Origin: Paracyclopina nana
Taxonomy: Eukaryota; Arthropoda; Copepoda; Cyclopoida; Cyclopettidae
NCBI GenBank assembly: GCA_019096065.1
Contig: JAGUCH010000001.1
Span: forward strand, 9,796,001-9,860,000
Length of the DNA: 64,000 nt
Direction: 5' to 3'
Shown here: piece after piece, positions 1 to 39,112 of the stretch
Layout: each line of letters opens with the position of its first letter
Numbering within the stretch: the stretch's first letter is position 1
Notes under the pieces: generated by a model
The model's input: the letters and a program-made list of their open reading frames with translations, nothing else
What the model was told of the DNA's origin: nothing
Databases searched by the model: none
Translations under genes and position numbers: made by a program

Positions 1-1209
1 GTGATGTGCAGCTATCTTCCAGGCTGGACATGTGAACTTTCCAGTCGGTTCTGCAATTCGCAACATCAGTGTGGTCGACTTCGATCCGGCAAACAGGTAG
101 AGAAGACTTTGACCTTCGTCGAGGGGCATTTGTTGGTTGTGAGATGCACGCTTTCAGCCATGAAGTCACTTGTTTGGTCGTTCGACCATTTGTCGGCCGT
201 TTGAGAGCCAGTGCTGCTCACTAGCTGGCTGCAAAGTCTGAAAAAAGGCTTGATAATGGTGTCATACTAGCTGCTTAGCAGTAGCTTGCAAAGGACAACA
301 AATGTGCGATGACGATTCAGAGGAAGACTCGTTTCCAGGTGCCTCGAGAATAACATGAGCATAGCATGCAAGACACCTGCATGCCAAGAGGTCAAACACC
401 CGAAAACCGTGATCTAGGTAGTGCTGCTGCTCCTTCTTCTCAGGGCGGTGAATCCAATTTTTTGCTGCGAAACTTTCTTCGGGGTTTTTTCTCACCAAAA
501 AAAAGGTATGGTTAATAGCCATGCCAGTTTGTCAGCTTGGAATTTGGTGTAATTTTCGTTGTTCCCACACACTCGGCTTTCGAGGAGAATTGAGAGGAGA
601 ATTGTCTACTAAGATGCGTATCAGTGATGCACAGCCTAGCTTCCATTTCAGCGAAGGCTCACATTATCCCAAAATCGAGATCGGAGAGACAGTTTGAATC
701 TGCACGCTCTGCGAGCAAATCGGTGACAGCTCGAGCGACAAAAGATGTGCTCGTGACAAAAGAAAAGTCAGTGCATAGCAAGAGTTTGTCAACTTTGAAG
801 CTTTTTCGCGTCGCTTTTCATCCCAGCTTTTGACAAGGTTTTTTTCATGACGAAATTAAAATATGGGAGCACTCTCCAGAGACTCACTGCGAACAAATGA
901 GCTTTTCTCAACTCAAGTTTGAGCTGTGGTGAATTTTTAAAACTCCAATTTTCACGAGAAGAAGCTGCCGCGAAGGACTCGTCGAGAAGAAGATCAATTG
1001 GGAAGGTTAATGAGCATTCAAATTTCCAACATCGGTCTTATGGTCAGGAGTGATCATTACGAGCGTTCCAGACAAATGACACCAATCCCATTTATTTATG
1101 GCCACTTTTTTGCCCCTTTAATGACTTGTGTCATGCCACGATTGGAAACGTTTTAACAAAGACCGAATCGCAATTACTTTTGTCTCTGCTCTTCGTAGCG
1201 AAGCGTGCC
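1..1209. other. Unassigned 5' flank
   Basis: No convincing coding region, RNA gene or repeat boundary is visible in this stretch. The reading frames present are short (under 90 codons), lack splice-flanked structure and resemble no family I know. The stretch ends at the target-site duplication of the retrotransposon that follows. Confidence 0.5.
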
Positions 1210-1646
1210 TGAACGATCCTGCGATCTACCTCAGACTTGGATCCTTGGTCACGGTTCGAAACGTATCGGCGAATGGATTCGAATGGATATAGCAATGCTA
1301 ACCTAACCTAACTCCTGTCCTTCCAGATGATGAACAAGGGGCCCTGGATGCAATGCCTGGATGGAAAGACAAGTGGAAGACCAAAAGCAATGCTTATGAT
1401 CTGAAGGATGCAGCCTCTAATTCCTTTGGAATCAGGCTACAGATGAGCTATGCTCAAGATGAAGACAAATGGACATAAAATAATTAGAGTTTCAATAAAT
1501 ACAAAGTATGAAAAATTGGAGACACAAGTTCTATTCTTGAATTCGTTTGCAACAGTGAACAAAAAAACAGTGAGTTGGCATCAGCTGCCGCCGTTGGCGT
1601 GGCCGCGCGCCCAAGGTGCGCCGTCAAGGTGAGGCAAACTCGCACA
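1210..1646 (-). repeat. 3' LTR of the BEL/Pao element
   Basis: A 437-bp copy of the terminal repeat, matching 13954-14390 throughout by eye. On the minus strand it starts TGTGCGAG and ends ATCGTTCA, giving TG...CA ends. It contains a telomere-like stretch at 1299-1312 (CCTAA repeated on the plus strand) directly beside one of the GCAATGC palindromes (1290-1300), and a second palindrome at 1385-1395. Short open frames inside it are duplicated in the other LTR and are not genes. Confidence 0.95.
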
Positions 1647-1649
1647 GAG

Positions 1650-1658
1650 TCCCCCCTT
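1650..1658 (-). other. Polypurine tract of the BEL/Pao element
   Basis: On the minus strand a purine run (AAGGGGGGA) ends three bases before the 3' LTR. This is the position expected for plus-strand priming in LTR retrotransposons. Confidence 0.7.
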
Positions 1659-1675
1659 GGAGCCCGTTGGCCTCT

Positions 1676-2311
1676 CTAAGGCCATTTGGCCGTGAAGGCC
1701 ACAAAACGGGTCTCCAACACATGCCTGGCAACACCGTCGACCTTGATGATCCGGTTGTAGGGGATAAGGCTGACGCGGTCTTCTTCTCTTGCCAGTTTCA
1801 AGCGAAAGCCTTCGTGAAGCCTGAAGCCCTTGATGCTCAGCAGACTGCATAAGGACGCCTCCTCGACCAACTGCATCCACGGCTTGCCGAACTTCAGCTC
1901 GTGGTGCCAGGGCTCATGGCCCAGCTCCTGACAGAGCTCGCACCTCTTCAGCAGCATCTCGCACACCATCACTGTGTGGTCGGTGGAGCCGCATTGCGGG
2001 TAAATGCACTTCACTGGTCCTGCATTGCAGGACCTCTTCTCGTGATCGAAGGAGCCGCATCGCGTGCAAAAGTGGGGCGCATTGCGCCCCCCGGCAAACA
2101 CCACCTCTACGACGTCATTCCAGGTTAGACGTCCTGGCGCCTTGCGTACCACGGCCAAAAAGTCCCTGGCCAGGCTCTTGTCCACCAAGTGGAGGTCGAG
2201 CGCGTAACGCCTGGGGCCTTTACGCAAGTGAGTGCGGGTGGCGAGGACGCTGTGGACTGAGGTGGCCTGATTGTCACGGAGGAACATCCATTCAGCGAGG
2301 CTGTCTCGCAA
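1676..2311 (-). CDS. Extra zinc-knuckle ORF downstream of integrase
   Basis: A 211-codon open frame at the 3' end of the element, where BEL/Pao elements usually have nothing or an env-like gene. Residues 82-137 hold three consecutive zinc-knuckle-like motifs: C82-C85-H90-C95 (CX2CX4HX4C), C102-C107-H112-C117 (CX4CX4HX4C) and C124-C127-H132-H137. The Gag of the same element has its own knuckle cluster at 9712-12204, so this is a second nucleic-acid-binding module and not the main Gag. I see no signal peptide or membrane segment, so it is not an envelope. The start codon is uncertain, because open sequence continues upstream in another frame (2125-2616) and the protein may begin further upstream. 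The role is unknown; a captured host or LINE-type Gag-like protein is one possibility. Confidence 0.6.
   Translation of the reverse strand: MRDSLAEWMFLRDNQATSVHSVLATRTHLRKGPRRYALDLHLVDKSLARDFLAVVRKAPGRLTWNDVVEVVFAGGRNAPHFCTRCGSFDHEKRSCNAGPVKCIYPQCGSTDHTVMVCEMLLKRCELCQELGHEPWHHELKFGKPWMQLVEEASLCSLLSIKGFRLHEGFRLKLAREEDRVSLIPYNRIIKVDGVARHVLETRFVAFTAKWP
2016..2034. repeat. 19-nt GCATTGC palindrome
   Basis: The perfect palindrome GGTCCTGCATTGCAGGACC, one of the two longest members of the family, lies between the second and third zinc-knuckle codons of the accessory ORF. As single-stranded RNA or DNA it would form an 8-bp stem with a 3-nt loop. Confidence 0.9.
2074..2090. repeat. 17-nt GCATTGC palindrome
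   Basis: The perfect palindrome GGGGCGCATTGCGCCCC is the most GC-rich family member, only 40 bp from the preceding 19-nt copy. Confidence 0.9.
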
Positions 2312-4780
2312 TGCGAGGACGTGGTTGGAGGCTCGGTTTTGTTGAAAGGCCTCATCTCGGTGTCGGTCTTGCCCAACTTGCCAGTGTTGTGGTTGTCACG
2401 GATGCGGTCCAAGAAAATGGACGTGACGCACACGCCAGTTTTGAGCCCGAAACCATGTCGTTGGAGGCCGCGCACAACCAGAGCCAGGATGGAGGCCATG
2501 GTGACTGCATGATTCATCCAGACATACATTTGCATCTTCGCTGTCCACTTCTTGTACGTCACGCTGAAGTCGCCATTGTCTCGATCGTACTCGAACGCAA
2601 TGCGTGGAGGCTGCAAGGTCGGCTTGCTCCTCTTCTGGTGGTCACCATAACGGGCACGAGGTCGCCTCCCAGGCGATCTGCGAGGTAGGTCAAATTGCTC
2701 CTCATGTTGGCTGGCTTCTCTTCAGGCTGCGGGAACAGGGCAATGCCCACGAGGTTCGTGGTCGACTTGGTGCGAATGTCGATACCAATGTCCTTGTACC
2801 TCTTTCCTCACTGATGTTGAAGCTCCTCCGACTCCGCACCGCTGGGAGACTCCAACAGCTCCACGATCTTCTGTGGCACCTTGGCTCCCTTGAACGAGTG
2901 CTGATTTCACCATAGTTGCACTGGATGACAGGAAGAGTGCCGGTGAGCGTGCCAACTCCCAGCAGGGTGAAGCAGCTCGTTCGCTTGCCGCCGGCGTTGG
3001 CCATTCCAGCCTTGTCCAAAGCCTTGACGGTCCAGCTGTACATGTGGCTGGTCATCGCGCCCAGGCTGCCACACGCCAGAGAAGAAGGCATACTTGTCCT
3101 CCAAGTCCTGCTCCAACTGAGGCCACTGATCATCATTCTCGAGGACGACGACATTGCGTTGCCCCCGCAGGCCGGGCCAGTCCAGAGGCCCAGACCTCAT
3201 CTTGATGGCCTCGATGATGCGCTCTTCCAGGCTGAAGGTGGTGTGGCATTGTTCGCCCATCTCTCCTCGAACCTGGGCATCGTGGGGCCTTCTTGCACTC
3301 GATGGATGGCACAATTTTCATGGGCAATCTGCATTGCAGGGGGATCTTGAAGCATTGCTTCTACCCGTGGGCAATTGGAGGGCGGGGCCTCTCCGTCCCG
3401 AGTCGGTGGAGGTGGCCGCAATGCGGGAGGGCTCATGCCAGAGGACCTCAGGGCGGCGATGAGAAGATCTGGATCTTCAAAGGGGTCAGCCAGAGTGGTG
3501 ATGGTTGGATTTAGACTGAAATGATGCCAAAACCTCTCAAGCCACTCAGGGACAGCCTCCATGTCCGACTGCTTTCCAATGGAAAGCACCTGTCGCAGGC
3601 ACTCGTCCTCGTTGGGTGGAATCGACCCGAACATGCCTCTCGAGATCATGGTGGCGAAGCTCTTCCTCTTCAACCACACTTGGCGGCAAACTTCGAGTAC
3701 CGCTCCTCCCAGAGATCCTCGGCGCAGAGGCTGTACTGGGGGGCTGACGAATAGGCCGTTGAACTCAGATTTCAGATGTGCACGAGCCTTGGGTGACAAA
3801 CAGCCATGACGTCAATCGGGCAATGCTCTCCAGAAGCCCCCGCAATGCGGGTGTGGTCGGCCTTCGAGGCTGAGGCGGGTCGCCGCTTGGCCATCTCAGA
3901 CCGGGTGTCGGTTGGATCCCTCGGTCCCAGAGGACAAGGAGTGACCCAAAATGGCTACTTTTGGGTCGCTATAGTGCTTCAAAATGGCGTCTCCCTCCAT
4001 AGCCTCCATCTCGTCATGAAAATAGACTTGCTCCGCGAAAAGCCAGGCCTTGAGGACTCGAGCGTGGTCAGTGAGCATTGCTCGTCTGTCCTCGAAAGCG
4101 GAGGGCAGGCCGAGTCCTGTAAACAACAAGCTTAAGTTATTGGGTCTGATAATACCAAATTCATCTTTTATAATCTCCGCGCTACGGTCTCTGAATGAAT
4201 AGACATCTCCAAACAAGGTCTCTTCTGGGCGTTCTTTCGGGCCTTCTTTCTTCTTGTCACCGAGGCGTTCGAACACGGAGGTTCTTGAAGACCGACGATC
4301 GTCCTTCCTGGAGGCACCGAGGTATCTTGAAATTTGAGAGATTCGCCCTTTTCAAGGGCTCCCTGGAGGACCGTGTGTCCTCCGACCTCGACCTGGACTC
4401 GGTTGACGACCTCTTCCTGTCGGACTTTGACCTGGCGGACGAGGAGCCCTCGACGATGGCTCGCTCCTGATCTCTGGGCTTTCGAGTCGATGAGACTGGC
4501 ATTTCTCCCGGTTTGTCTTCCTCTTCGCCTCGCCCAGTGGTTGAAGTCGTTGACTTGACTTCACATCCAGGATTCCCGAATCCACGTGAATCTCGATTTG
4601 GTCCTCAGCTGACTCGAATCCAAGATGCTGACGACACACTTTCAACATCCATTTTTCTGGCGGGCGACGAGATCGACAATCCCGGCGCGTATTTCGGTGA
4701 GCTGGCCAGCAGATCCGTGTCCATGGGTTCTTCATTCAGAGGCTTCATAGCAATGCTATTTTCCGAATTACCTGAAGGGT

Positions 4781-4797
4781 TGGTAGCAATGCTACCA
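4781..4797. repeat. 17-nt GCAATGC palindrome
   Basis: The perfect palindrome TGGTAGCAATGCTACCA lies 22 bp after another 13-nt member (4747-4759) with different arms. Confidence 0.9.
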
Positions 4798-4834
4798 CTG
4801 ATTGGCGCGGTGATGGCGTCAAATTCTTGAAGGA

Positions 4835-4853
4835 CCTCCCGCATTGCGGGAGG
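4835..4853. repeat. 19-nt GCATTGC palindrome
   Basis: The perfect palindrome CCTCCCGCATTGCGGGAGG is the third member within 110 bp. The three have unrelated arms but the same core. Confidence 0.9.
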
Positions 4854-5204
4854 CGGACCTTCAAGGTTGGGGGCATCTCCTTGTAGATTTGGGGTCGGGA
4901 GGTGGAGGGCGTGAGCATTTCTCCGCCAAAATTTTCCTCACCTCCAGGTTCGTCGCGGCCGCTTTCCATGATGCACAGTTGAAAATTCTCGCTTCTATGG
5001 TGTAAACAGTGGATACGGAAATGATAACATAGAGTAAATAAACAAACTGGTTTGAAGAGTTCGACCTGTCACAACCTACGCATTGCTGAAGGCGTTGTCT
5101 CAACCTAGACATATTGTGATAATCGACGTGAATTGCCATGATAATTAAGTTAATGCATATTTTGTGAAAAGAAATTGATTTTGGTGCGCAATGCGCTTAA
5201 TTGA

Positions 5205-5717
5205 CTAGACAGGGGTTGATTTGCTGACGATTGATTTTAAATGGATCCCAGCGTGACTGGCCCTGTTAGACAGGATAGGATATTTTCCTTCAGCTGCGTC
5301 GGCCTTGGTCCAGGGTGCGCTCCTGCACGCGCGTTGATTGAGTTGACATACCTTGCCATGCCGCTCGCCGTCAGCCGTCATTCTCCATGTCGATTTGCTC
5401 GCCGGGTTGAGGGTGAATGAGCAGTTCATCTGAGTCGCGAAAAACATCGAGCGTGTATCAGAAACTGGGTTGATTTTTCGTGAGAACACGGGCTCAACGT
5501 TGCCAGGTGGCACCATTTTGACAATTGCTCTGCGGCATTGTCCATCTTGATCTCGGAAAGCAGTGTGAATTATGCCGAGTGGCCAGCAGTAGCGCTTATG
5601 AAATTGTGGTTTTTCCAGTACAGCTACCACGTCCCCACTTTGAGCAGGTCTCATGATGCCTCCAAATTGGCATATTTCGGAGCTGCTCAACGAAGTTCTA
5701 ATGACCAATAGTCCCAA
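5205..5717 (-). CDS. BEL/Pao integrase C-terminal segment
   Basis: An open frame directly downstream of the integrase core. Its first 70 residues contain GDVVAVLEKP and, about ten residues on, WPLGIIHTAF followed by RRAIVKM. This matches the C-terminal domain found at the end of BEL/Pao integrases (the DUF5641 type, usual pattern GDVV...WPLGRV...). It is separated from the core at 5828-6628 by a frame break, so the polyprotein is not continuous here. The later residues resemble nothing known to me. Confidence 0.7.
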   Translation of the reverse strand: MGLLVIRTSLSSSEICQFGGIMRPAQSGDVVAVLEKPQFHKRYCWPLGIIHTAFRDQDGQCRRAIVKMVPPGNVEPVFSRKINPVSDTRSMFFATQMNCSFTLNPASKSTWRMTADGERHGKVCQLNQRACRSAPWTKADAAEGKYPILSNRASHAGIHLKSIVSKSTPV

Positions 5718-5827
5718 AGGTTCTGCAATGCAGTCTCAGAAGTTGAAATCTTGCTTCTAAAGTTTTGAGTTGGTCGGGATCTATCACAGGGAGAATTTCT
5801 CCTGGGGGGCCTCTCGACAAGCAATGG

Positions 5828-6628
5828 TTAGGGTGAGAAAATTATTTTCCAGAAGTCCAATTGGTCGTCATTGACGAAACCTTCGGATTTAATTATTATG
5901 TACCGAAAATCTTCAATATTGGTGGTTTTCTGTGAGAATTCACGGTAGAGTGCCTTTTTGAAGAGTTTTATTGCTGCTTCTCCAAGACCATTGAAGTTTG
6001 GTGATAATGGAGGGGAAAGAGTCCAGTTGGCAATGCCAATTTGTCCTCCATGTTGTCTCAATTTGTCCCAGTCCAAAACCTGCAACTTTCTCAACATTTC
6101 GTCGCATCTTGGGCTGACACGTATGGATTCCCTGCATGCGATGAAGTTTGAGCCGTTATCACTTCTCATTGTGTGGGGGCAGCCTCTTCGAGCGACAAAC
6201 ATTTCAATTGCTCTCATCAACGAGTCTGCCGTCATGTCATAGAGTTCTTCGCAGTGGATGGCTTTGGAGTGGAGGCATATAAAAACTACGACATACATGT
6301 TGTATTCGGATCGGTTGAATTGGGTTGTGAAAGGGCCGCACATGTCAAAGCTCGTGTATTTAAATGGCATGAATTCGGTGAGAGGGACCGCATGTGGTGG
6401 GAGCTGACCCATGTGCGGTGGCAGTGCGTTCAGGCGATGTCTAGCGCACTTTGCGCAGTGTGACAGAATTTCTGTGATGATTCGCTTGCCTCCTGGTAAA
6501 ATGTATTTTAACTGCGCTTCGCTCAGGTACCTGAGTTTTCCGAGGTCATGGCTCAGTTTTTGGTGGATGTCTTCAAGGATCAATCTTCTTCCTTGACCTG
6601 GCACTACAATTGGCGGCGTCCTATCCAT
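5828..6628 (-). CDS. BEL/Pao integrase (zinc-binding and catalytic core)
   Basis: A 266-codon frame encoding the part of Pol that inserts the cDNA into host DNA. The N-terminal HHCC zinc-binding domain is recognisable from His22 and His27 and the C58-x2-C61 pair (HCAKCARHR). The catalytic core follows with Asp95 (SFDMCGPF), Asp157 (RSDNGSNF) and Glu217 in NFNGLGEAAIK, which corresponds to the usual FGGLWE-type block of BEL/Pao. The catalytic triad therefore appears intact. The frame opens in the middle of Pol, so the first Met is not a true start; the protein would be released from a polyprotein. It stops just before the C-terminal domain. A GCAATGC palindrome lies inside the coding sequence at 6027-6039. 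Confidence 0.88.
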   Translation of the reverse strand: MDRTPPIVVPGQGRRLILEDIHQKLSHDLGKLRYLSEAQLKYILPGGKRIITEILSHCAKCARHRLNALPPHMGQLPPHAVPLTEFMPFKYTSFDMCGPFTTQFNRSEYNMYVVVFICLHSKAIHCEELYDMTADSLMRAIEMFVARRGCPHTMRSDNGSNFIACRESIRVSPRCDEMLRKLQVLDWDKLRQHGGQIGIANWTLSPPLSPNFNGLGEAAIKLFKKALYREFSQKTTNIEDFRYIIIKSEGFVNDDQLDFWKIIFSP

Positions 6629-6701
6629 TGCACTGGGGAGTGCTCAAGTCGTCCCTTGGATCTTAACTCTCCCTGTTGGTGGATGACAGGGTCCAAAGTG
6701 G

Positions 6702-6956
6702 CTAATCGGCTGCCTTTGGGCCAATGGCCTTTATCATAGAAAAGTCCAATTCGTGGCCGTACTCGTTTTGTTGAAGCCATACAGCAATGCTGTTTTCAGC
6801 TCTGCTGTACTCTTGAGGCGTGATGTCTCCATAAGGCATTGCGTCAGAGCCGTGTTTTATGTACAGGAAGAATCTTGCACAGTAAGCGAGTGTTCGCACC
6901 ATTCTGCCCCAGCGGTTGAATCGGTCAAATTCGATGTGGCAAGGAGAATTTCTCAT
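6702..6956 (-). CDS. Pol linker between RNase H and integrase
   Basis: An 84-codon open frame. Its pattern DRFNRWGRMVRTLAYCARF followed by ITPQEYSRAE matches the conserved linker of BEL/Pao Pol (usual form RFSS..RLLRVTAYVLRF...LT..E...AE). It sits in the expected place between the RNase H part and integrase and is separated from both by frame breaks. Two GCAWTGC cores (6784-6790 and 6836-6842) lie inside it, and a 13-nt palindrome (6964-6976) lies just upstream. Confidence 0.65.
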   Translation of the reverse strand: MRNSPCHIEFDRFNRWGRMVRTLAYCARFFLYIKHGSDAMPYGDITPQEYSRAENSIAVWLQQNEYGHELDFSMIKAIGPKAAD

Positions 6957-7374
6957 ATAATTCCACGCAATGCGTGTATCAACGTCTGGGCCTTAAATGC
7001 TTGGGTACAAAATAGCCGCCTAGTCTTTCGAAGTACGAGATGAGATTGACCTTTTTTATTAGCTTTTTGACCTTTCTGGTATTGAGATTGTTCCTTTCAT
7101 ACAGTTGTAGTGCCGCTCTTCATCGTCACTGATGTTCGAGTCCATTTTGGGAACTTGTCATCGGGCCTCTGAGGAATCTAGGGCCATGTATCCAGAGGTC
7201 TGAGTCAGCAGCTCAGCAATGCTGCAGCCTCTACTGACTAAATCTGCTGGATTCATCCTACCAGGTACATGATGCCATTGGAAGTTCATCGTTCTTCAAG
7301 ATCTGCGTTACCCGCCTGGCAATAAATTTTTGTACCTTCGAGCTGGCTTCAAATCCAAGAAGGCGCATTGCGAA

Positions 7375-8640
7375 TCAGTCCACAGGTGCACCGGAATGAC
7401 TTTCTCCAGTGCACGGAGCACATCGTCGCAAATTTCGCACCGATGACGCAACCTTCGAGTTCCATTTCTGGCATAGATCTAGTTTCGACAGAGAAGCGAT
7501 TTTCATTCTTGTTGCCAATAGTGTGCAGTCATAAGTGCCTTCCTCGTACTCCATCCTGAGGTAGACTGCAGCTCCCTTGGCAGACTCGCTTGCATCAGTA
7601 AATATGTGCATGGATATGGTTTTGGCTGGTCGGGAGCGCATTGCGCGGCAGTCTAAAGCTTCAACTCGGGCTACTCAGCGAGGTAGTCCCCCCATTCCTT
7701 GGTGATAAGCTCTATTTCTTCCGAAGTCAATCATGTCAAAGACTGTGTCCCAATCGACGTTGTAGACGTGTTTCAGGGCCATGACTCTTTGTATCAAAAG
7801 TCTTCCTTTGAGGATGAGCGGATTTATTAACCCCAGAGGGTCGAACAAGCGCTGCACAAACTGAACCATAAGACGTGGGTGAGTGGTGCATCTTTGACAG
7901 AATCAGTTGAGGGTGGCTGAAAAGAATTTGATCACCCTTCGCAGTCCACGCACATGCCCAGAGCTGGTGACCTCGGCAGCCTCGGAGGTGACGGAGAACC
8001 CAGGGAGTTTGTGCGCATCGGGAATATCTTGTAGGACTGAGGAGCATTGCTCCCCCACTTTCTGAATGGCATCCCGCCCAAATCTCCTATCTCCAGAATT
8101 TGCTTTACCGTTTCCCGACCAACAATGTTGTCCTCCACTGAGGCAAAAACATCGTCTACATAGAGGCTGGAATCCAGCACCTTGTATGCTAAGGGATGGC
8201 TTTCTTGATATTGGGAGATGTGATGTTTAACTGCGAAGCTCGCCATGCATGGCGCACCACGGTGCCAAATACCACAGAGTTAGCTTCAGAGTGCACGCCT
8301 GCTCATAAGGAAACGAAGGATATTTTCTAGAGGACTCACGAGAGAGAATCTCAAAAACATTTTTGAAATGTCTGTAAACAGTATTACTGGTTTTTCTGGC
8401 TGCGATTAGAATTTCAAAAACATCACGCTGCAATTTGGGGGCCGGGAGTAAGGCATCATTTAAGCTTTTACCGTTGTGTTGTCTGGACCCGAAAACCACT
8501 CTTATACCGGCATTGAGGGCTTGTCTCTTCTTTCGACTAGGAGCCAATCCAAATAGTAACCATCATCGAGGTTGTCGAACCTGGGATCGAGGATGCGGAT
8601 AAAGCCGGCCTCTAGCCATTCCTTAAGCTCTTGACAGGCT
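7375..8640 (-). pseudogene. BEL/Pao reverse transcriptase and RNase H, frame-broken
   Basis: Several overlapping frames together cover RT and RNase H. RT pieces are IRVVFGSRQHNGKSLNDALL with PKLQRDVFEIL (8227-8547) and the catalytic YVDD box at residues 29-32 of the 7932-8246 frame, followed by GGMPFRKWGSN. The downstream FDPLGLINPLILKGRLL block (7675-7869) is the Pao-specific region after RT, and HIFTDASESAKGAAVYLR (7375-7641) is the RNase H-like DASE motif. At least three changes of frame separate these pieces, for example just after the GSNAP codons near 8041 and within the palm near 8400. As written it cannot make a functional enzyme. The breaks sit oddly with the apparently identical LTRs and could be assembly indels. 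Confidence 0.85.
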
Positions 8641-8643
8641 TTT

Positions 8644-9063
8644 TCATAGGTTGGCAGATCGAACAGCTTTAGTCTTCTCCACAGCGGAAGTGGCCTTCAT
8701 GACTGCCAGCCGATTGCAGATGAAGCTTGGCTCATTGTCTCTCCACATTGGTCGCATTTGATACCTTCGATTGTCCAATTGGGTGATGGTGGAGGTCAAA
8801 ATGTCAAGGGCCTTTTTGTCGTTCACGCTTAGCATTGCTAACGGTGGCGGGCCTAGGGGGTCATCGTATTCCCACAGGGCGTTAAGAAGTTCAGACGGGG
8901 AGGAAATGTCTTTGCCTTCGCATAACTGACACGGCAATGCCGGTGGTCCCGCTTCCTCCACAGGTAGAGTGATGGTGCCGAGCATCACCCCATAGTGGGA
9001 TGCTCCCTTGACCTGCTCGGGGTATAATACGAATAACCCGGCCCAATGGGCAGTCATATACAT
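8644..9063 (-). CDS. Pol segment between protease and RT
   Basis: An open frame overlapping the end of the protease frame by 10 bp. Its second half (NDKKALDILTSTI, then RRYQMRPMWRDN, then NRLAVMKA) matches the conserved segment before the RT palm in BEL/Pao Pol. This normally reads ALEIL...GRYEV.LPW..., where the LPW box is here MRPMW. The downstream frame with LDDGYYLDWLL continues towards RT but is interrupted. Confidence 0.7.
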   Translation of the reverse strand: MYMTAHWAGLFVLYPEQVKGASHYGVMLGTITLPVEEAGPPALPCQLCEGKDISSPSELLNALWEYDDPLGPPPLAMLSVNDKKALDILTSTITQLDNRRYQMRPMWRDNEPSFICNRLAVMKATSAVEKTKAVRSANL

Positions 9064-9791
9064 AAGGTCTCGCCCTCTTTCTTGTGTACTACGCGATCGG
9101 GCATAATTAGATTGAAGTAATCGATTCCAATGAGCAGGTCTGGACAGGGCGGGGCCGCATAGGTGGGCAATTCCAAGTCCTTCAGGAAAGCGAACTTCTT
9201 TTTAAGCTTACTTATTGGTGGTACGTTGACTGACGATGGAAGATCAGCTATGGTGTGAGCTGCGATGTCGTGGATTGGGCCTCCTGATACGGCCTTTATT
9301 TGTAAGGTCACTGCTTCGCTGGCCACTGTCACCGTGGTGGCGATCATCTTGAGGATTTGATCGTCAGAGACCCCTTCCAATTTGAGTTTTTCTGACAAGT
9401 TCTTGGAGACCAGTGATAGTTGAGCTCCCGTGTCGAGGAACGCATTGACCTTGATGAAATGATCCGGATCCTTGGGATTTGCCACCATCACCGGCACGAC
9501 GCAAAAACTTAGAAGTTCTCGACCTCTGGTTGGCTTCGGCATTGCCGCAACAACTTCCGCTGGGGGCATGGAGGTGGATGATAGAGGGCCTTTTAACTCG
9601 GTCATGATCGCAATGCGACTCGCAGAAGTTTCATCAATCAAATCAATTTTATTAATAAATACTTCATCCTTTTCGCTCGCCGGAACAAAGTCATCCAGCT
9701 CCAAGTGGTCATCACCTAGCTCGCTGGCTGACACCGAAGTGAAGTGCCACAGTGAACTGGTGTTCTTTAGCTCGGCCTTCAGCGGATCCAC
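9054..9791 (-). CDS. BEL/Pao aspartic protease
   Basis: A 245-codon frame with the retropepsin active-site motif FLDTGAQLSLV at residues 118-128, where Asp120 is the catalytic aspartate of DTGA. A hydrophobic beta-rich domain follows, with PDLLIGIDYF near the end, the typical DLLIG flap-to-dimer motif of this family. The enzyme would cleave the Gag-Pol polyprotein. The frame overlaps the Gag frame by 80 bp and is shifted one base downstream, so translation would need a +1 frameshift (or the equivalent) in the overlap, unless one base is wrong. Three palindromes lie near or inside it (9537-9547, 9608-9618, 8932-8942). Confidence 0.85.
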   Translation of the reverse strand: MDPLKAELKNTSSLWHFTSVSASELGDDHLELDDFVPASEKDEVFINKIDLIDETSASRIAIMTELKGPLSSTSMPPAEVVAAMPKPTRGRELLSFCVVPVMVANPKDPDHFIKVNAFLDTGAQLSLVSKNLSEKLKLEGVSDDQILKMIATTVTVASEAVTLQIKAVSGGPIHDIAAHTIADLPSSVNVPPISKLKKKFAFLKDLELPTYAAPPCPDLLIGIDYFNLIMPDRVVHKKEGETLCI

Positions 9792-12204
9792 ATCGTCTTG
9801 AGGTGTTGTTCGTGATATTCTTCAGCACTTCGGCCAGGTGGGCGACAGCCTTTGTCATCTCCTGATCTGTGGGACTTTTTGCTTCAGTTTCTTGTGCCAG
9901 GGTTGTCTTGTTCTTGTCGACGTGGTCCCACGCTCCGTGGAGGCGAGTGTGATGACTGTTGGATTGGCATTTTTCGCACTTCCAGTCCCTAATGCAGTCT
10001 CTAGTCGTATGTGCGCCTGCCAAACATCTTAGGCAAGCCTTGTACTTGAAGCATTTCAGTGCCTGTCCCCTGGGTGGCAATGCCAGCACATTCGGGCAGT
10101 TGTAGAACCTGTGATCAGACGAATTACATTCAGGGCATTTGGCATAATACCTTTGGTTGTTTTTGGTGACTGTCATGATGATGAGTGATTGGTCCTCTTC
10201 ACTTTCCACGATGAGTTGCTCAGTGTCCATTTGAGCCGGTCTCTCAGAAGCGACGCCATAATGAAAGAGATTTTGACAGGGTGGTTCGTTGTGTGAAGAT
10301 GTGTTTGAGCAAGGCTCTTCAAACTCCGGATTGGCGACGTGATTTACCGCCACTGCGGCCTTTATTTGTCTAGCGGGTTTGGCAATGCCAATCGCCGCTC
10401 CAGAACCATGGTTGACGGACAGAGACCTAAGGCGTTGCAGTTTGCGATTGCACCATTTCTCAAAGAGGGGTCCATTCAGGTAGGAGTTGGCATCGTCAGT
10501 TCTTCCATTCAAAAACTGATCTATATCTTGCCTAGTTGACGGGGTCATGGGAAGTGAGCGAAAAATATACGAGTCGTGCATATCCATGGAGGCGGCAATG
10601 CCTGGAAACCCCCAGTGAGTAGTGACGTGGCGATAGATGTCACCCACAGCCAATTTGGCGGTCATCACGCTGCTGGCATTGTCAGCATCGAGAGGAGCCA
10701 TGTTCATGAGCTTGCTGATGAGGCAGTCCATCTGAAGTTTGGGACAACCATAATCTGCCTCAAGGGCCTCCAAGCAGTGGAGGTAGCCAGCCTCCGTCTG
10801 AGGTTGGCGGCTCACAAAATCTCCTGCCGGCCCTCCCTGTGTGAGCTCCAAAAGACGCGAGTACTTTTCCGGCCACGGCATGGTGGTGTCCTCATGTACA
10901 AAGGACCTGAATTGATCGCGAAAAGCATAAAACTCGGATATATCGTTACCGGAGAACTTCGTCATGTTCACTGGTGCCAGCTTGGCTTTATAGCGGCTTC
11001 CAAAACTTCCTTGCGAGGGTGGTAGAAGGTGAGGAGCTTGATAGTTGCCGAAACCACCATTGTTTTGCCAGTTGCCGGCCTGATTGTACAGCGGTTGCTC
11101 AGGGTGGCTTTGAGGTCTTGGATACCTGATTGGAGGTCGGGTTGAGGCTCCATATCCTGGTTGTGGGAGCGGATTGTAAGGAAAGGATCCAGCGTATGCC
11201 GTGGTTTGTGGGTAACCATATCGATTGAGAATAGGCGGCCTCACGGGAGGGGGCTGCACGTGTGCGAGCCCATAACTAGCCGGGTTTTGAATTGGTGGTC
11301 CCTGAATAAGGCCTGGATTTGTCGAGTGACCCGTGGGCGCTGCAGGCCATTGGCCTGACTGCTGGCATGGCCAGTCTGGCAGGCCGGGGTGGCCGGCAAT
11401 TTGAGGAGGGGCTCCACCGTAGCCCATGGCATTGCCAGCGAAGGAGACCACATTGTGGTGAGGGACATGATGAGCTTGGGTCGTGACTGTGACGTTGCCT
11501 GTGGCTTGACTGTAGACCGGTGGGGGAAAGGATGCACCTGCTGCGAGTCCCTGATTTTCAGGGTAGGATGCCTGACCCTGTGGGTGGGTGGGCCATTGTT
11601 GTTGAGGCCCCGAGTAAGCGGACTGAAGGATAGGTGGCCGCACACGAGGAACGAAGGAATCCATGGGAGCTCCCCCGGGTAGACCTGAGGGTGCTCGGGT
11701 GGCCATCGGCGGCTGAGGTCCAAAATTGGGATTGCTTCTTAGAGGGGGCGGCGGCACGGACAGGTCTGGTGGGTTGAGTGCTGGGACGCGAGGGACATAC
11801 ACGTTGTTCAAAACATGTCCTCGTTCATCCGGTCGGGATGTCCTCGCGTGAGGAAAGTTGGCCTCATATACTGAAAAAGGATCGCTGAGGTCGCGCGCCG
11901 GAGCATTGCTCATTACCTCAGGTGGGACGTCTCGCAGCATGTTCCTCAAGGTTTGAACCATGTCCTCCCCTTGTTGGATGAGTTTGAGGTCTCGATCCTC
12001 TGGTTTCCCTCCTTGCGCTTCAAAATTCTGAGCGGCTTCCCGTAATGTACCAAGAGCGCGGGCGTAACTTCTGTAATTTCCTGCTATCTCGCTGGGAGGC
12101 GTGCCGGTGGAAATTTCTTGAGCCATGGCTCCGTGCACACCGCGAAAAATGCAAGCCGCAGCGCCGTAGGCCATTGCCGTCCTCGCTAAGGCTGCGGTGT
12201 CCAC
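9712..12204 (-). CDS. BEL/Pao Gag with zinc-knuckle cluster
   Basis: An 830-codon intact frame, the longest in the element. The N-terminal half is Pro-, Gln- and Gly-rich and probably disordered. The middle (GNDISEFYAFRDQFRSFV, then YSRLLELTQGGPAGDF) matches the DUF1759 capsid region of BEL/Pao Gag. Near the C-terminus is a cluster CPECNSSDHRFYNC, CLRCLAGAHTTRDC and CEKCQSNSHHTRLH. These are two classical CX2CX4HX4C knuckles and one CX2CX4HX4H, the usual Pao arrangement for binding RNA. The frame overlaps the protease frame. Upstream, further Gag sequence is split over several frames, so the first Met may not be the real start. Five GCAWTGC palindromes sit within this intact frame, using different reading-frame phases. 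Confidence 0.88.
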   Translation of the reverse strand: MDTAALARTAMAYGAAACIFRGVHGAMAQEISTGTPPSEIAGNYRSYARALGTLREAAQNFEAQGGKPEDRDLKLIQQGEDMVQTLRNMLRDVPPEVMSNAPARDLSDPFSVYEANFPHARTSRPDERGHVLNNVYVPRVPALNPPDLSVPPPPLRSNPNFGPQPPMATRAPSGLPGGAPMDSFVPRVRPPILQSAYSGPQQQWPTHPQGQASYPENQGLAAGASFPPPVYSQATGNVTVTTQAHHVPHHNVVSFAGNAMGYGGAPPQIAGHPGLPDWPCQQSGQWPAAPTGHSTNPGLIQGPPIQNPASYGLAHVQPPPVRPPILNRYGYPQTTAYAGSFPYNPLPQPGYGASTRPPIRYPRPQSHPEQPLYNQAGNWQNNGGFGNYQAPHLLPPSQGSFGSRYKAKLAPVNMTKFSGNDISEFYAFRDQFRSFVHEDTTMPWPEKYSRLLELTQGGPAGDFVSRQPQTEAGYLHCLEALEADYGCPKLQMDCLISKLMNMAPLDADNASSVMTAKLAVGDIYRHVTTHWGFPGIAASMDMHDSYIFRSLPMTPSTRQDIDQFLNGRTDDANSYLNGPLFEKWCNRKLQRLRSLSVNHGSGAAIGIAKPARQIKAAVAVNHVANPEFEEPCSNTSSHNEPPCQNLFHYGVASERPAQMDTEQLIVESEEDQSLIIMTVTKNNQRYYAKCPECNSSDHRFYNCPNVLALPPRGQALKCFKYKACLRCLAGAHTTRDCIRDWKCEKCQSNSHHTRLHGAWDHVDKNKTTLAQETEAKSPTDQEMTKAVAHLAEVLKNITNNTSRRCGSAEGRAKEHQFTVALHFGVSQRAR

Positions 12205-12209
12205 TGCAG

Positions 12210-13890
12210 GTCCGCTGACAGCCGAGTTTCTCGCGCTCGAAGTTCCGATGCGCAGATCGCGCTGCGACCTCCCGTCAACATCTGGAGGAGGATTCCCCGC
12301 GTGCGGCGGAGCTCCCTCGCCGGCACATTACCGGCTAAGTCTTGCTGCGTGGAGGCGTCGTGATGGGACGGTTTGTCCCGGTAAGCGTGCCGGGCCTCAC
12401 CTGAAGCTGCTGGTTGAGCCAATCAGCTGTTTCTCTTCCCGAGACTTGTTGAGCGGTGAGGTAATAATAATCTCCGTCTTGCATCACGACATGGCAACCT
12501 CCGCTCGCCTCGTCCATTTCGACCTGGCCAACTGGGAGTCCTTTCTTCCTGCCTGGGCTGAGCTGTTGGACTTGGATTACATTGAAGCAGGCTGGACTGA
12601 GGAGCATTGCTCGAGGTTCCAGCGTGCGAGTTGGGGAAAGTCTTCATAATTTGATTAGCCGATGCCAGTAGCATCTGACATGCCTGATAATTCTTCACAT
12701 AGCTATCTCTCAAGGTTTTGGACGGCTGTATGTTGGCTTGAGCGACGGACTGCTCAGAAGGCTGTAAATTCTTTCATACTCCTTTATGTAATACCTGAGA
12801 TGCTGCAGCACTTCATGGGCTGTGGACTTGGTAACTCCACCCTTGTCGAATTCAGCCTTATGACGGTTGGTGAAAGGTTGAGTGATCTGGAACAAGTTTT
12901 GCAGAGACTCGTGTGTGCAAAGGCTTCCGTTTCTGCTTTTTTCATCTCCTGCAACTGCTTGGCCGACTTCTTTCCAGCGTTGGGACGGCGCTTGGTGCCT
13001 CCTGGCACGTATTCCCTTCAGTGCGGTTACCAGAACCTCTCTTGCTCATGCGTTTTCTTTCTTTGAACCTGATGGAATTCCTTCACCTCTTGGCTTGATG
13101 CCGTGGAAGGACCTCGAGCCGTATGAAGCTTTGAGAGGTCGCATCATCTTGTGAGGACGGAGGTGGGCCTGTCCGAGGAGGTTGCATAGCCGGGACGAAC
13201 CTTCCAGAATTGTCCCTCGGTTGTTGCTCCTGTCGACCACAGTGGTGGAGGTGGCATCCATCGAAATTCCGCCGCGGCATTGCCGAGTGCGGCAGCTCCT
13301 CCAGCCTGTGGGCCGATGGGAGTAGACGTGTCCAGGTTGAAAGGAGGAGGAGCACGATTTGGGCATTGCCCGATGTCCCTGCCGACGTCGTGGCGAGGTG
13401 CCAAGACACCTGGGATGGTATGTCGTCGGTGGGGATCTGGCATTGGAGTAGGTGGGAAGGATGACACGTTCGGGTCAAATGGGCCAGAATTCCCCACTGG
13501 AGTCCTAGTTGTCATATTATTTTTATCAGGTCGAATAAGGGTACCTGTTGACGAGGAGACCACGACGGCCTCTGAGGTTGAGTCGAGGGCTCTATAGGTG
13601 AGTGAATGAGCCTCGACGATGTTTCTAGCTAGTTCAGGTTCCGGAATGGCGTCAGTGACTTCATGAAGAAGAGCGAAGCGCCTCGCCGCTTGTTTTTTTA
13701 TGGATTTGCGCGCGAATTTGCTCGCTTGGTTTAAGTCACGAAGAGCTTGGTGGTAAGGAGAGATTTCCAGGTTTACCCTTCCCGTGCCACCATATGGGCT
13801 TTGCCCTTGGACTCGTCTGCTTCTTCTCGTGCCCGCGTCTTCGGGTTGATCGATTTTGGCCTTGATTTTGCCCCACTTATTTCTTGGCAT
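12210..13890 (-). pseudogene. N-terminal Gag region, interrupted
   Basis: Minus-strand frames just after the primer binding site. The first (13144-13890) begins with a basic stretch MPRNKWGKIKAKI and has a Pro-rich second half. Later pieces include KKSAKQLQEMKKAETEAF and then FTNRHKAEFDKGGVTKSTAH with a helical segment (HEVLQHLRYYIKEYERIYSLL), in different frames. Read together they look like one Gag leader/matrix region broken by frame changes around 13100, 12900 and 12700. Palindromes lie at 12602-12612, 13275-13285 and 13361-13371. It is assigned to Gag by position and composition rather than by a diagnostic motif. Confidence 0.55.
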
Positions 13891-13933
13891 GTAGGTGGTG
13901 TTGAGACTCTTGGGGATCTAGGACGGGTCGGGA

Positions 13934-13951
13934 GCCCCACGTTGGGCGCCA
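13934..13951 (-). other. Primer binding site, tRNA-Lys1,2 type
   Basis: On the minus strand the 18 bases TGGCGCCCAACGTGGGGC lie two bases downstream of the 5' LTR end. This is exactly the sequence complementary to the 3' end of tRNA-Lys1,2 used by many retroelements, and it fixes both the orientation and the 5' LTR boundary. Confidence 0.9.
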
Positions 13952-13953
13952 AC

Positions 13954-14390
13954 TGAACGATCCTGCGATCTACCTCAGACTTGGATCCTTGGTCACGGTT
14001 CGAAACGTATCGGCGAATGGATTCGAATGGATATAGCAATGCTAACCTAACCTAACTCCTGTCCTTCCAGATGATGAACAAGGGGCCCTGGATGCAATGC
14101 CTGGATGGAAAGACAAGTGGAAGACCAAAAGCAATGCTTATGATCTGAAGGATGCAGCCTCTAATTCCTTTGGAATCAGGCTACAGATGAGCTATGCTCA
14201 AGATGAAGACAAATGGACATAAAATAATTAGAGTTTCAATAAATACAAAGTATGAAAAATTGGAGACACAAGTTCTATTCTTGAATTCGTTTGCAACAGT
14301 GAACAAAAAAACAGTGAGTTGGCATCAGCTGCCGCCGTTGGCGTGGCCGCGCGCCCAAGGTGCGCCGTCAAGGTGAGGCAAACTCGCACA
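13954..14390 (-). repeat. 5' LTR of the BEL/Pao element
   Basis: A 437-bp repeat equal to 1210-1646; no mismatch was found by eye. It would contain the promoter of the element. It carries the same TTAGG-like stretch and the same embedded GCAATGC cores (14034-14044 and two more) as the other LTR. Confidence 0.95.
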
Positions 14391-14394
14391 TGCC
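14391..14394. repeat. Target-site duplication TGCC of the BEL/Pao element
   Basis: TGCC directly follows the right LTR and also directly precedes the left LTR at 1206-1209. A 4-bp duplication is within the range known for BEL/Pao integration. Confidence 0.8.
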
Positions 14395-19026: not shown

Positions 19027-20589
19027 ATGGCTTTGGTGGCGAACCCCTCGTCGGTGTGGAGGGACCCGAACGTGATGTCAGCCTCGGCAGTGACCTCGCT
19101 CACGCCCGCTCAGCATCACTCGCACACCATGCACGGCATGGCCATGGCCTCCTCCCACCACCCTCACCACTTCTACGGATCCAGCGGCCCCACCTCGCCA
19201 GGGGTTGACCCCACCGAGCTCAACTCCTCCACGCCAGTGCCCACCCAGTCCAGCTCCGACGGCGACATCAAGACGGAGGACGGGCAGGAGATCAACTGCG
19301 TGGTCTGCGGCGACAAGTCGAGCGGAAAGCACTACGGACAGTTCACGTGCGAAGGTAGGCTCGGCCCAAGCTCGGATCCCCAGCAACTTGCACAATTCAC
19401 TCTCATTTCAGGCTGCAAGAGCTTCTTCAAGCGCTCCGTCAGACGCAACCTGACCTACCAATGCAGGGGCAGCCGGAACTGCCCCGTGGACCAACACCAC
19501 CGTAACCAGTGCCAACATTGCAGGCTGAAAAAGTGCCTGAAAATGGGCATGCGGCGAGAAGGTAGGTGGCAACCCCCCCAGTTCGGCCTCAGATCAAATT
19601 CTCAACGCGCCGAGGGTTTGATCTGGGGCTGGACTCATCCTCCGTATATTTACAGCTGTGCAAAAAGGCCGCGTGCCCCCCACACCACAGGGCATGTTCA
19701 TCGGGTTCGGCGGGGATCCACTCAGCGGCACCACCTACTTGTCCTCCTACATATCCATGCTACTCAGAGCGGAGCCCTATACCACCTCACGCTACGGCCA
19801 AATGCAAATGGCCACCAACAACATGGTCGGCATTGACAACATTTGCGAGTTTGCCGCCCGACTCCTCTTCAGCGCTGTGGAGTGGACTAAGAACATCCCT
19901 GGGTTTCCAGAGCTCCAAGTCACAGATCAAGTGGCCCTGCTGCGCCTTGTCTGGTCAGAACTGTTTGTGCTCAATGCGGCCCAGTGCAATATGCCTTTGA
20001 ATGTGGCCCCACTCCTGGTCGCTGCCGGCCTCCATGGAGCCCCGATGGCAGCGGACAGAGTGGTTTCTTTCATGGATCACATCCGGATCTTCCAGGAGCA
20101 AGTTGAGAAGTTGAAGGCTCTTCATGTGGACAATGCTGAATATTCCTGCATGAAAGCCATCGTGCTCTTCACCTCGGGTAAGCGTGTGAATAGCATATAT
20201 GACCGGTGGTCCCTTCAACCTTTTCTTCAATTGCAGACGCTCCTGGCTTGACCGACGTCCAGGTGATTGAGCAAATGCAGGAAAAATCCCAGTGTGCTCT
20301 CGAGGAATATTGCCGCACGCAATACCCAAATCAGCCCACACGGTTTGGCAGGCTTCTTTTACGGCTGCCATCATTGAGGACAGTTTCATCGCAAGTGATT
20401 GAGCAGCTGTTTTTCGTTCGACTAGTTGGCAAGACCCCGATTGAGACCCTGATTCGAGACATGATCATGTCCGGGCCCTCGTTTCAGTGGCCCTCCACTT
20501 CGTCCCCCACAACGGGGTCGACTTCAGTGACGTCGTCCGCCTCGTGCCCCCCGCCCCCGCACCCACCCCCCGTCTACGCGCCCATGTAA
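19027..20589 (+). CDS. svp: Seven-up/COUP-TF nuclear receptor, paralog A (4 exons)
   Basis: An orphan nuclear receptor of the NR2F group and DNA-binding transcription factor. Exons are 19027-19354, 19412-19561, 19656-20177 and 20237-20589 (450 aa plus stop), with all three introns in phase 1. The start ATG has a good context (GCCATGG), and the MALVA...WRDP N-terminus is shared with paralog B. The DNA-binding domain spans residues 91-156 with both four-Cys zinc fingers and the P-box CEGCKS. The ligand-binding domain runs from about 185 to 419 and keeps the [17 protein letters not shown] and PIETLIRDM helices. The N-terminus is His-rich; the C-terminal 31 residues are a Ser/Thr/Pro tail ending VYAPM. 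Introns are only 57, 94 and 59 bp, far shorter than in paralog B. DAPGLTD replaces the DACGL usual in the family, hinting at faster evolution. Confidence 0.95.
19355..19411 (+). other. 57-bp intron of svp-A, readable in frame
   Basis: GTAGGC...TTTCAG lies between the codons of the P-box (CEG|CKS). Its length is a multiple of three and it has no stop codon, so retention would insert 19 residues (starting GRLGPSS) immediately before the C of CKSFF inside the first zinc finger. The equivalent intron in paralog B is 354 bp. Splicing is clearly the normal outcome, because removal restores the conserved [11 protein letters not shown]. Confidence 0.85.
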
Positions 20590-21631
20590 ACTCGTAGCAC
20601 CAGTATTCAAAATCTATCCAGATTCATCCAGACGATCGCAAGTTACATGTATAGGTCTTCGCTAATAATTTACAACTCATGTCTTCCGATATTGTGGCAA
20701 CGAGGAGAGAGCTGCGGCAGTCTACTAGCCAAAGACAACGACTCTCTCGCATCGATGTACATTTTTTATGAGCAAAATAAACGAGAAACCGAGCCTGGCG
20801 CGCTCCTTTAATGTCACATCAGAACAAATGAGTCCATTAAACTTGATGACACCAGGTGAAAAATTTGTATTTGCATCTTAATAGCCACATTTTGGGGTCT
20901 CCCTCCTCTGCCTGGGCGCTAGCTGCCGAAAAAAGCTGGGGGAATAGAAATGGAGCGCAAAGTAATGAGATTGGTCTGAGGCGGCCACTTTGGACTCTTT
21001 AATGATGATATTAATTATCCAGCCATGAATAGTAATGCCCTGATCTCCATATTTCACATGAGCAGTCACGACACCGCTTTGGGATGCTCATACCAAGATG
21101 ACAGGGATTAGCTGCACCTAAATCCATGATTATGGTGATGAGAATGACTGCGTAGAATTTCCCAGGGGTCACTCGAGCGAGTTCTCCTTCGATTGCCGAC
21201 TTTTTGGCTGCTGCGTACTGCTATTTTACTAATCCTTCCTTCCATGCATGCATAGCATTCAAAATGTTGAAGCTGCAGCGCACAAAGGAGTGGGTATCGT
21301 CGTCGCGCCTTGGCCTAGAAAACTTTTGTTCCTCCTCAAGAGCTCTATGGAGATTTTCTTGCCGAGCTGATAAAAGCTACGAAGCCATTATGATGCGAGA
21401 AGAGCAGCATCTCATCTACTGATCCCAAATGGTCTCAATGGGTCTACGGTGACCTTTGGGCGTGACCTTTGAGGCCATCATTACTTTAGCTAGGATTCTC
21501 TTTTCTCTTTTAAGACATGACGTTTATTGCCAAGCCAGCACTAAACTTAAGCCTGCCTGGCTGGCTAAGAATTGTAAATGCACACTTAACTGATCATTAG
21601 GCGACACAAAACCACAAGAGATTAGATCAAG
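20590..21631. other. svp-A 3' region and spacer
   Basis: Contains the likely 3' untranslated region of svp-A, with a polyadenylation hexamer AATAAA at 20776-20781 about 190 bp after the stop codon. The rest up to the next exon shows no coding signal. Confidence 0.5.
20776..20781 (+). terminator. Candidate poly(A) signal of svp-A
   Basis: The canonical AATAAA hexamer about 190 bp downstream of the svp-A stop, the first such signal after the coding region. Confidence 0.55.
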
Positions 21632-32887: not shown

Positions 32888-32889
32888 TA

Positions 32890-39112
<6,223 letters not shown>

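Follow-up and report, generated by a model that had tools for sequence, protein, structure and literature searches.

The dispersed RNA packaging signals of human parechovirus 1 (HPeV1), bacteriophage MS2 and hepatitis B virus (HBV) are tens of short stem-loops that lie along the genome and share a loop motif, which for 71 of 73 HPeV1 peaks is a GxU within the loop (PMC5431903; for MS2, HBV and a review of packaging signals, PMC4751978, PMC7612645, PMC6281560). HIP1 of cyanobacteria (GCGATCGC) is a short palindrome iterated far above chance; it is described as genome-wide, is discussed together with DNA methyltransferases and has fixed-letter extensions in 12 genomes (PMC4390886). A third relative in kind, the repeated motif (RM) boxes of Sireviruses, is a high-copy palindromic motif in one lineage of long terminal repeat (LTR) retrotransposons that varies between elements, lies in the LTRs and upstream of env, forms CpG islands and mostly has a CGG-CCG core (PMC2829016). 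We describe here an array of a different design in BEL/Pao LTR retrotransposons of the copepod Paracyclopina nana. It is exemplified by one whole element, copy A, in a stretch of 64,000 nucleotides (the window; assembly GCA_019096065.1, contig JAGUCH010000001.1, positions 9,796,001 to 9,860,000).

In BEL/Pao clades of this genome, selection maintains an 11-nt unit of the form N2 N1 - core7 - N1' N2', which is present in about 40 copies per element in the group closest to copy A (group I). The core is fixed within each clade, as GCAWTGC in group I and as GCGWCGC or TCGWCGA in the more distant group III, and the outer two pairs can be almost any Watson-Crick combination. The motifs of single-stranded RNA viruses, by contrast, are short and degenerate, whereas the unit here has a strict 7-nt core with two free pairs. 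The array also differs from HIP1, as far as HIP1 is described in the source above, in being restricted to BEL/Pao clades and in having flanks that are free but paired; RM boxes, by what the cited parts of PMC2829016 say of them, have no free paired arms.

Complementarity that is kept while the letters change is familiar from retroviral dimer-initiation palindromes, the attC sites of integrons and REP/REPIN hairpins. To our knowledge these either occur once or a few times in a genome or are DNA elements of bacteria, and none forms an element-wide array with a common core. Among the top matches of literature searches on iterated palindromes, BEL/Pao elements and hairpins or packaging of LTR retrotransposons, no such array was found at the level of titles and abstracts.

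The repeated unit in copy A

Copy A contains 44 GCAWTGC sites within 1209-14390, which read on the forward strand as 25 GCAATGC and 19 GCATTGC. We call a complementary base pair directly outside the core a paired flank, and the core with two flanks per side the motif unit. At least two complementary bases lie on each side in 37 of the 44 sites, one in two sites and none in five; the longest palindromes are two of 17 nt and two of 19 nt. An earlier note on this DNA, made from the letters alone, had given the same 44 and 37 sites and extensions of 17-19 nt, and our recount reproduces them. Its expectation of 1.6 sites by chance was too low, as dinucleotide shuffles (n=300) gave a mean of 3.00 and a maximum of 8, but the enrichment that it claimed stands: sites with paired flanks averaged 0.18 in the shuffles and never exceeded 2. 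Outside the element the window holds 12 sites in 49,610 bases, two of them with paired flanks. The codon-preserving control that the note had proposed beside shuffling gave a similar answer, with the observed site count reached in none of 12 open frames of sister copies (500 synonymous-codon shuffles each). In L010 and L012, for example, 13 sites were observed in each against a mean of 2.2 (maximum 7 and 8, respectively), and in L076 14 against a mean of 2.7 (maximum 7).

The sites are located in the LTRs, in gag-pol and in a second gene, ORF2 (open reading frame 2). Coding sites fall in every codon phase, though rarely in one of the three, in line with the earlier description of sites in LTRs and in different phases of coding sequence. 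No regular spacing was detected (gaps 21 to 834, coefficient of variation 0.85). The core is all-or-none: copy A has 44 of it, but each of the 19 one-letter variants is found there no more than 4 times (range 0 to 4); CCAWTGG, with paired flanks in four of five occurrences, is a possible minor variant. In a palindrome scan (arms 4 to 7, loops 0 to 8) the element is enriched at odd loop lengths. Of its 56 palindromes that have 5-base arms around a single centre base, 37 contain the core, leaving 19 against ~15 expected.

Pairing is nearly complete at two flanks, partial at the next, and then near chance. When homologous sites of group I are merged, which leaves 86 of 218 (the collapsed set), Watson-Crick pairs are found in 79 at flank 1 and 76 at flank 2 (expected about 22-23), in 39 at flank 3 and 30 at flank 4 (expected 20.8 each), and in 22 at flank 5 (expected 21.3). 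This boundary agrees with the minimum unit NNGC-AWT-GCNN, a 4-bp stem with a 3-nt loop, proposed in the earlier note. Pairing of this kind is the signature of a short hairpin in which the letters themselves are read in the loop and the upper two pairs, whereas complementarity is all that the lower two pairs require.

Two other readings of a palindrome bear directly on this pattern. The 11-bp dyad symmetry, the strand symmetry and the presence of sites in both LTRs and body are also what a double-stranded site for a homodimeric protein of the host or the element, bound at the chromosomal copy, would display. A dimer with two half-sites does not couple free letters, however, and 14 of the 16 possible flank dinucleotides occur among fully paired sites, each matched opposite. 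The letters of the half-sites do not vary independently, as this reading predicts, but are coupled (79/86, 76/86), and those at flank 2 change jointly on both sides (see below); we consider it quite unlikely. Variable-letter palindromes are, moreover, a hallmark of retroviral dimer-initiation loops, and dispersed self-complementary units could pair between two identical element RNAs to form a multi-site dimer. Such pairing leaves the fixed 7-nt core and the fixed number of flanks unexplained, and we hold it to be less probable still.

In folding models the isolated unit adopts the 4-bp stem and 3-nt loop in seven of seven DNA strings and four of five RNA strings, the fifth RNA string not being an observed site. 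Within 60 bases of context the motif hairpins reach a mean pair probability of 0.68 (n 92), compared with 0.45 (n 66) for other NNGC-xyz-GCNN hairpins (p 7e-4), a control set that comes partly from outside group I and is slightly weaker alone (-2.26 vs -2.54 kcal/mol). The higher value is partly due to more frequent pairing at flank 3 (47% vs 29%). A rescue of weak arms by flank-3 pairing is not clear (7/13, 20/39 and 8/21 for arms with 0, 1 and 2 G/C).

Conservation, turnover and distribution among clades

DNA searches of the genome (92 Mb in 10 contigs, with the window on contig C1) recovered copy B (C1:7173390-7186631, 97%), copy C (C8:4125191-4136448, 74-82%) and further families. We grouped BEL/Pao elements by integrase identity to the window copy, a grouping of our own that covers the best-scoring candidates: among these, group I shows 74-100% identity (13 matches including the window copy), group II 59-64% (20 matches) and group III 45-49% (10 matches). 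Three loci each were read in part for groups II and III. A contig preference is possible, as 14 of the 20 group II integrase matches fall on C2, and 8 of the 13 group I matches on C1 with none on C2.

In the stretches read, the motif with paired flanks is present in all 13 group I loci, the closest BEL/Pao elements. The number of sites is 44 in copy A, 43 in B, 38 in C and 43 in a 12.5-kb stretch that includes a further family, F; of these, 37, 38, 33 and 39, respectively, are paired. The finding thus survives in other copies of the element, where the earlier note had held that a lack of enrichment would refute it.

Selection was measured between copies B and C. Their synonymous third positions are identical at 20 of 23 positions in cores and 19 of 19 in flanks, against 565 of 1116 (51%) elsewhere. 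These sums combine the comparisons L010-L018 and L044-L045; L010-L016 was left out since it overlaps L010-L018, and L044-L076 and L076-L045 were dropped because unlike open reading frames had been aligned (82 and 40 amino acids). The earlier note had further claimed that the arms stay complementary although their letters vary, and compensatory changes at flank 2 between homologous copies bear this out. Among 109 shared-site comparisons, 23 differ at flank 2, and in 15 of these both sides have changed and pair in both copies, while seven pair in one copy only and one in neither. At flank 3, 41 differ, of which two changed on both sides with pairing kept, 22 pair in one copy and 17 in neither. 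The comparisons take families in both directions (538 rows) and are not independent, as a single event enters the count through more than one family pair; judged by eye, both flank-2 letters have changed at no fewer than four distinct sites.

Template switching and palindrome correction create complementarity without fixed letters and could produce the units without benefit; mutational production and template switching had been named in the earlier note as possible causes. A mutational origin is rejected because the core is all-or-none, the boundary is sharp at two flanks, and copies B and C strongly conserve the synonymous positions of core and flanks; as the main cause it is largely refuted and we give it very little weight.

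Individual sites turn over. Copies B and F share 16 of 32 alignable sites, yet B and the F stretch hold 43 sites each. Lost sites that can be aligned differ by substitutions, in gap-free codon alignments from which insertions would escape; within that limit, insertion of a mini-element as the source of sites was rejected. The free but coupled outer pairs, the fixed loop and upper stem, the synonymous conservation and the near-constant number of sites together make it very probable that the unit is a selected, repeated and recognised hairpin.

Group III carries the 11-nt architecture with cores of its own in all three loci examined. This change of core goes beyond what the earlier note had reported, as do the sharp boundary after two flanks and the near absence of G-U pairs. 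L078 (C6:2072500-2077500) has a single, unpaired GCAWTGC. Its palindromes with 5-base arms around one centre base nevertheless number 22, against an expectation of about 5; eight of the 22 have the core GCGWCGC, and all eight GCGWCGC sites have at least two paired flanks. The same core has paired flanks in three of four sites of L080 (C1:4922500-4925000). L079 (C5:1763700-1766200) instead has TCGWCGA, with paired flanks in four of five sites. These are small numbers, and the 7-mer has a p of about 1e-4 before correction over up to ~270 patterns; its 5-nt centre CGWCG gives 6/6 (p 1e-7). A hairpin scan with a threshold of four sites found the two main cores; apart from these it gave one unrelated 4/6 pattern, from 25.6 kb of window sequence outside the element, and nothing in group II, in RVT_1 loci or in L079. 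Five more distant BEL/Pao loci, short at 2 kb each, showed no enriched core.

The earlier note compared the pattern with HIP1, but a HIP1-like genome-wide system is not supported by the distribution outside these clades. Thirty RVT_1 loci, probably gypsy elements, have 0 to 2 sites per 3.5 kb; a paired site occurs in 22 of them, the same one being common to the copies of a family, and none has an array. GCAWTGC occurs 17,027 times in the 92 Mb, a count without a genome-wide null. Its flank classes MK and KM number 3757 and 5389 against ~3480 and ~5113 under independence, and the excess of ~550 could come from group I and multi-copy repeats. A genome-wide system is rejected because flanks are near independence genome-wide, the rest of the window has few sites, and RVT_1 loci lack an array. 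Beyond this genome, searches found no relatives in viral contigs or in genome contigs; the second viral and the genome contig searches used a three-locus alignment, to whose pattern another two loci did not conform. A protein search with the integrase yielded one weak match at 29%.

The element in the window and its surroundings

The assignment to BEL/Pao is supported by a DUF1759 gag, a DUF1758 protease, an rve integrase and LTRs with a target duplication. Peptidase_A17 (PF05380) is listed for sister copy B (C1:7179591) and not for the window copy among 150 scored. The first base of the 438-base LTR repeat lies outside the TG...CA ends, and the primer-binding site is presumably of tRNA-Lys type. 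ORF2, downstream of pol, is open in the sister copy L076 of family F (L076 1442-4831, minus strand; 1130 amino acids) and has there a C-terminal zinc-knuckle array recognised by eye; this protein had no matches in Pfam, PDB or the protein collection searched.

The frames of copy A are broken because of about 100 small indels relative to its 97% sister. Over ~10.8 kb (1210-14390 vs C1:7175200-7185944) we counted 72 missing and 29 extra stretches of 1-4 bases, beside 170 substitutions. As the LTRs are 100% identical, this load points either to assembly error or to an unusual history.

Table. Features of copy A (motif sites from the GCAWTGC count; positions in the window)
Feature	Position	Strand	Basis
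Whole BEL/Pao LTR retrotransposon, copy A, 13,181 bp	1210..14390	-	identical LTRs; 4-bp target duplication; Pfam DUF1759/DUF1758/rve
3' LTR	1210..1646	-	repeat of 438 bases, 1209-1646, 100% identical to 13953-14390
5' LTR	13954..14390	-	repeat comparison
Target-site duplication TGCC, left	1206..1209	.	sequence reading
Target-site duplication TGCC, right	14391..14394	.	sequence reading
Primer-binding site	13934..13951	-	sequence adjoining 5' LTR
gag region ORF with DUF1759	9712..12327	-	Pfam; zinc-knuckle array judged by eye
Protease region, DUF1758	9054..9821	-	Pfam
Integrase region	5828..6643	-	Pfam rve above cut-off; H2C2 slightly below cut-off
ORF2 region, frames broken in copy A	1676..4937	-	ORF reading; C-terminal zinc knuckles by eye
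Motif unit, 2 paired flanks, 3' LTR	1290..1300	.	
Core only, unpaired flanks, 3' LTR	1348..1358	.	
Motif unit, 2 paired flanks, 3' LTR	1385..1395	.	
Motif unit, 2 paired flanks	1989..1999	.	
Motif unit, 6 paired flanks	2020..2030	.	
Motif unit, 5 paired flanks	2077..2087	.	
Motif unit, 3 paired flanks	2306..2316	.	
Motif unit, 2 paired flanks	2595..2605	.	
Motif unit, 2 paired flanks	2738..2748	.	
Motif unit, 2 paired flanks	3329..3339	.	
Motif unit, 3 paired flanks	3350..3360	.	
Motif unit, 2 paired flanks	3416..3426	.	
Core only, unpaired flanks	3818..3828	.	
Motif unit, 3 paired flanks	3840..3850	.	
Motif unit, 2 paired flanks	4073..4083	.	
Motif unit, 3 paired flanks	4748..4758	.	
Motif unit, 5 paired flanks	4784..4794	.	
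Motif unit, 6 paired flanks	4839..4849	.	
Core only, unpaired flanks	5078..5088	.	
Motif unit, 2 paired flanks	5186..5196	.	
Motif unit, 2 paired flanks	5723..5733	.	
Motif unit, 3 paired flanks	6028..6038	.	
Motif unit, 3 paired flanks	6782..6792	.	
Core only, unpaired flanks	6834..6844	.	
Motif unit, 3 paired flanks	6965..6975	.	
Motif unit, 2 paired flanks	7214..7224	.	
Core, one paired flank	7363..7373	.	
Motif unit, 2 paired flanks	7636..7646	.	
Motif unit, 3 paired flanks	8042..8052	.	
Motif unit, 3 paired flanks	8830..8840	.	
Motif unit, 2 paired flanks	8932..8942	.	
Motif unit, 2 paired flanks	9537..9547	.	
Motif unit, 2 paired flanks	9608..9618	.	
Motif unit, 2 paired flanks	10075..10085	.	
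Motif unit, 3 paired flanks	10380..10390	.	
Core, one paired flank	10593..10603	.	
Motif unit, 2 paired flanks	11427..11437	.	
Motif unit, 2 paired flanks	11901..11911	.	
Motif unit, 2 paired flanks	12602..12612	.	
Motif unit, 2 paired flanks	13275..13285	.	
Motif unit, 2 paired flanks	13361..13371	.	
Motif unit, 2 paired flanks, 5' LTR	14034..14044	.	
Core only, unpaired flanks, 5' LTR	14092..14102	.	
Motif unit, 2 paired flanks, 5' LTR	14129..14139	.	

We further note short TTAGG-like repeats (GTTAGGTTAGG, element strand) adjoining a motif unit in both LTRs (1292-1320 and 14036-14064). Outside the element, AT-rich DNA at window positions 47925-47998 holds two paired motif units 63 bases apart, and a tandem array at C1:2449406-2454616 repeats AGCAATGCT about every 243 bases. 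Host nuclear-receptor exons lie at window 19027-35384 by Pfam, in keeping with an animal host; for the ligand-binding exon COUP-TF is closest among solved structures, and the nearest proteins, from short contigs, are 91% identical.

Possible readers of the hairpins

The reading that we rank first, and hold tentatively at somewhat less than even confidence, is that the scattered hairpins serve as clade-specific recognition signals, to which a protein of the element itself binds in order to package or condense the element's RNA. The element would encode a nucleic-acid-binding protein whose many binding sites are the hairpins, folded in single strands of the element that are most likely its RNA. 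By analogy, the gag zinc knuckles and the ORF2 zinc-knuckle protein are candidate readers. Many weak sites would jointly mark the RNA for packaging and for condensation in the particle, and the clade-specific core would hold each clade's proteins on the RNA of that clade. Because the total remains near 40 despite the turnover of individual sites, their number would count for more than their location. Two features of packaging signals are seen here, a large number of stem-loops sharing one loop motif and their conservation between relatives, the latter for B versus C, with turnover against more distant families. Satellite tobacco necrosis virus (STNV) reportedly has dispersed RNA packaging signals as well.

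The occurrence of clade-specific cores within one host points to an element-encoded reader. Host RNA-binding proteins that read hairpins are common, and the conservation between B and C would also fit a host protein or silencing pathway that reads the hairpins in element RNA to the element's benefit, through stability, localisation or small-RNA processing. One host reader would nevertheless favour one core, whereas clades of this host have different cores and the 30 RVT_1 loci have no array; this makes a host reader unlikely in our estimate.

Several observations weigh against packaging of RNA by an element protein. RNA stems usually tolerate some G-U pairs, but sense G-U pairs are absent from the 86 collapsed group I sites at both flank 1 and flank 2 (before collapsing, 0 at flank 1 and 2 at flank 2 of 146), where A-C pairs number one and two, respectively. 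The loop centres are strand-symmetric, with 40 A and 46 T in sense. An excess of sense over antisense folding (p 0.004; p 1e-4) was lost after homologues were collapsed and controls matched (difference-of-difference p 0.27 to 0.44). In distant group I families, raw core identity is close to background (37/56 vs 2125/3269 for L010-L027; 13/30 vs 1283/2043 for L010-L017) because sites turn over, and the conservation result therefore rests on B versus C. Hairpins with GCAWTGC, GCGWCGC or TCGWCGA, or with any other enriched core, are missing from three of the 20 group II matches (12.8 kb), although the one locus read at that place does have the start of an ORF2; neither ORF2 nor BEL/Pao life thus seems to need the hairpins. 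As group III is more distant from the window copy than group II by identity, the architecture would be either ancestral and lost in group II or of multiple origin.

The near absence of G-U pairs keeps a role in single-stranded complementary DNA (cDNA) in play, in which the cDNA would fold during reverse transcription and a protein of the element or the host would bind it for condensation, nuclear import or strand transfer. The nearly strict Watson-Crick pairing, the symmetric A/T loop centre and the folding of all seven 11-mers as DNA agree with it, and the rarity of G-U pairs is the main reason for ranking it second. Taken in isolation, however, the DNA hairpins are weak (-0.7 to -2.8 kcal/mol in the folding model for these 11-mers), and group III does have sense G-U pairs. 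Its 22 listed sites show 19 Watson-Crick and 3 G-U pairs at flank 2, one of the latter at a site without a paired flank 1; in sites with a paired flank 1, both non-Watson-Crick pairs at flank 2 are sense G-U (two sites only). We regard the cDNA reading as doubtful, if better placed than a host reader.

Returning to recognition by the element itself, it is nearly an even matter in our judgement that several BEL/Pao clades each write their own address across the whole of the element's genome, in the form of ~40 hairpins with a clade-specific loop core, free stems and a co-evolving element reader. The switch of core between clades in one nucleus would then amount to a lock-and-key self-recognition of retroelement RNA or cDNA. 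Little is known about how an LTR retrotransposon distinguishes its RNA from that of others, including close relatives in the same cell, and here the sequence of an element carries a dense and conserved structural code, specific to the clade and legible by eye. If the hairpins bind neither gag nor the ORF2 protein, another force selects some forty one-loop hairpins, many of them in coding sequence. If they bind one of these proteins, dispersed packaging signals would extend to retroelements, with far cleaner statistics.

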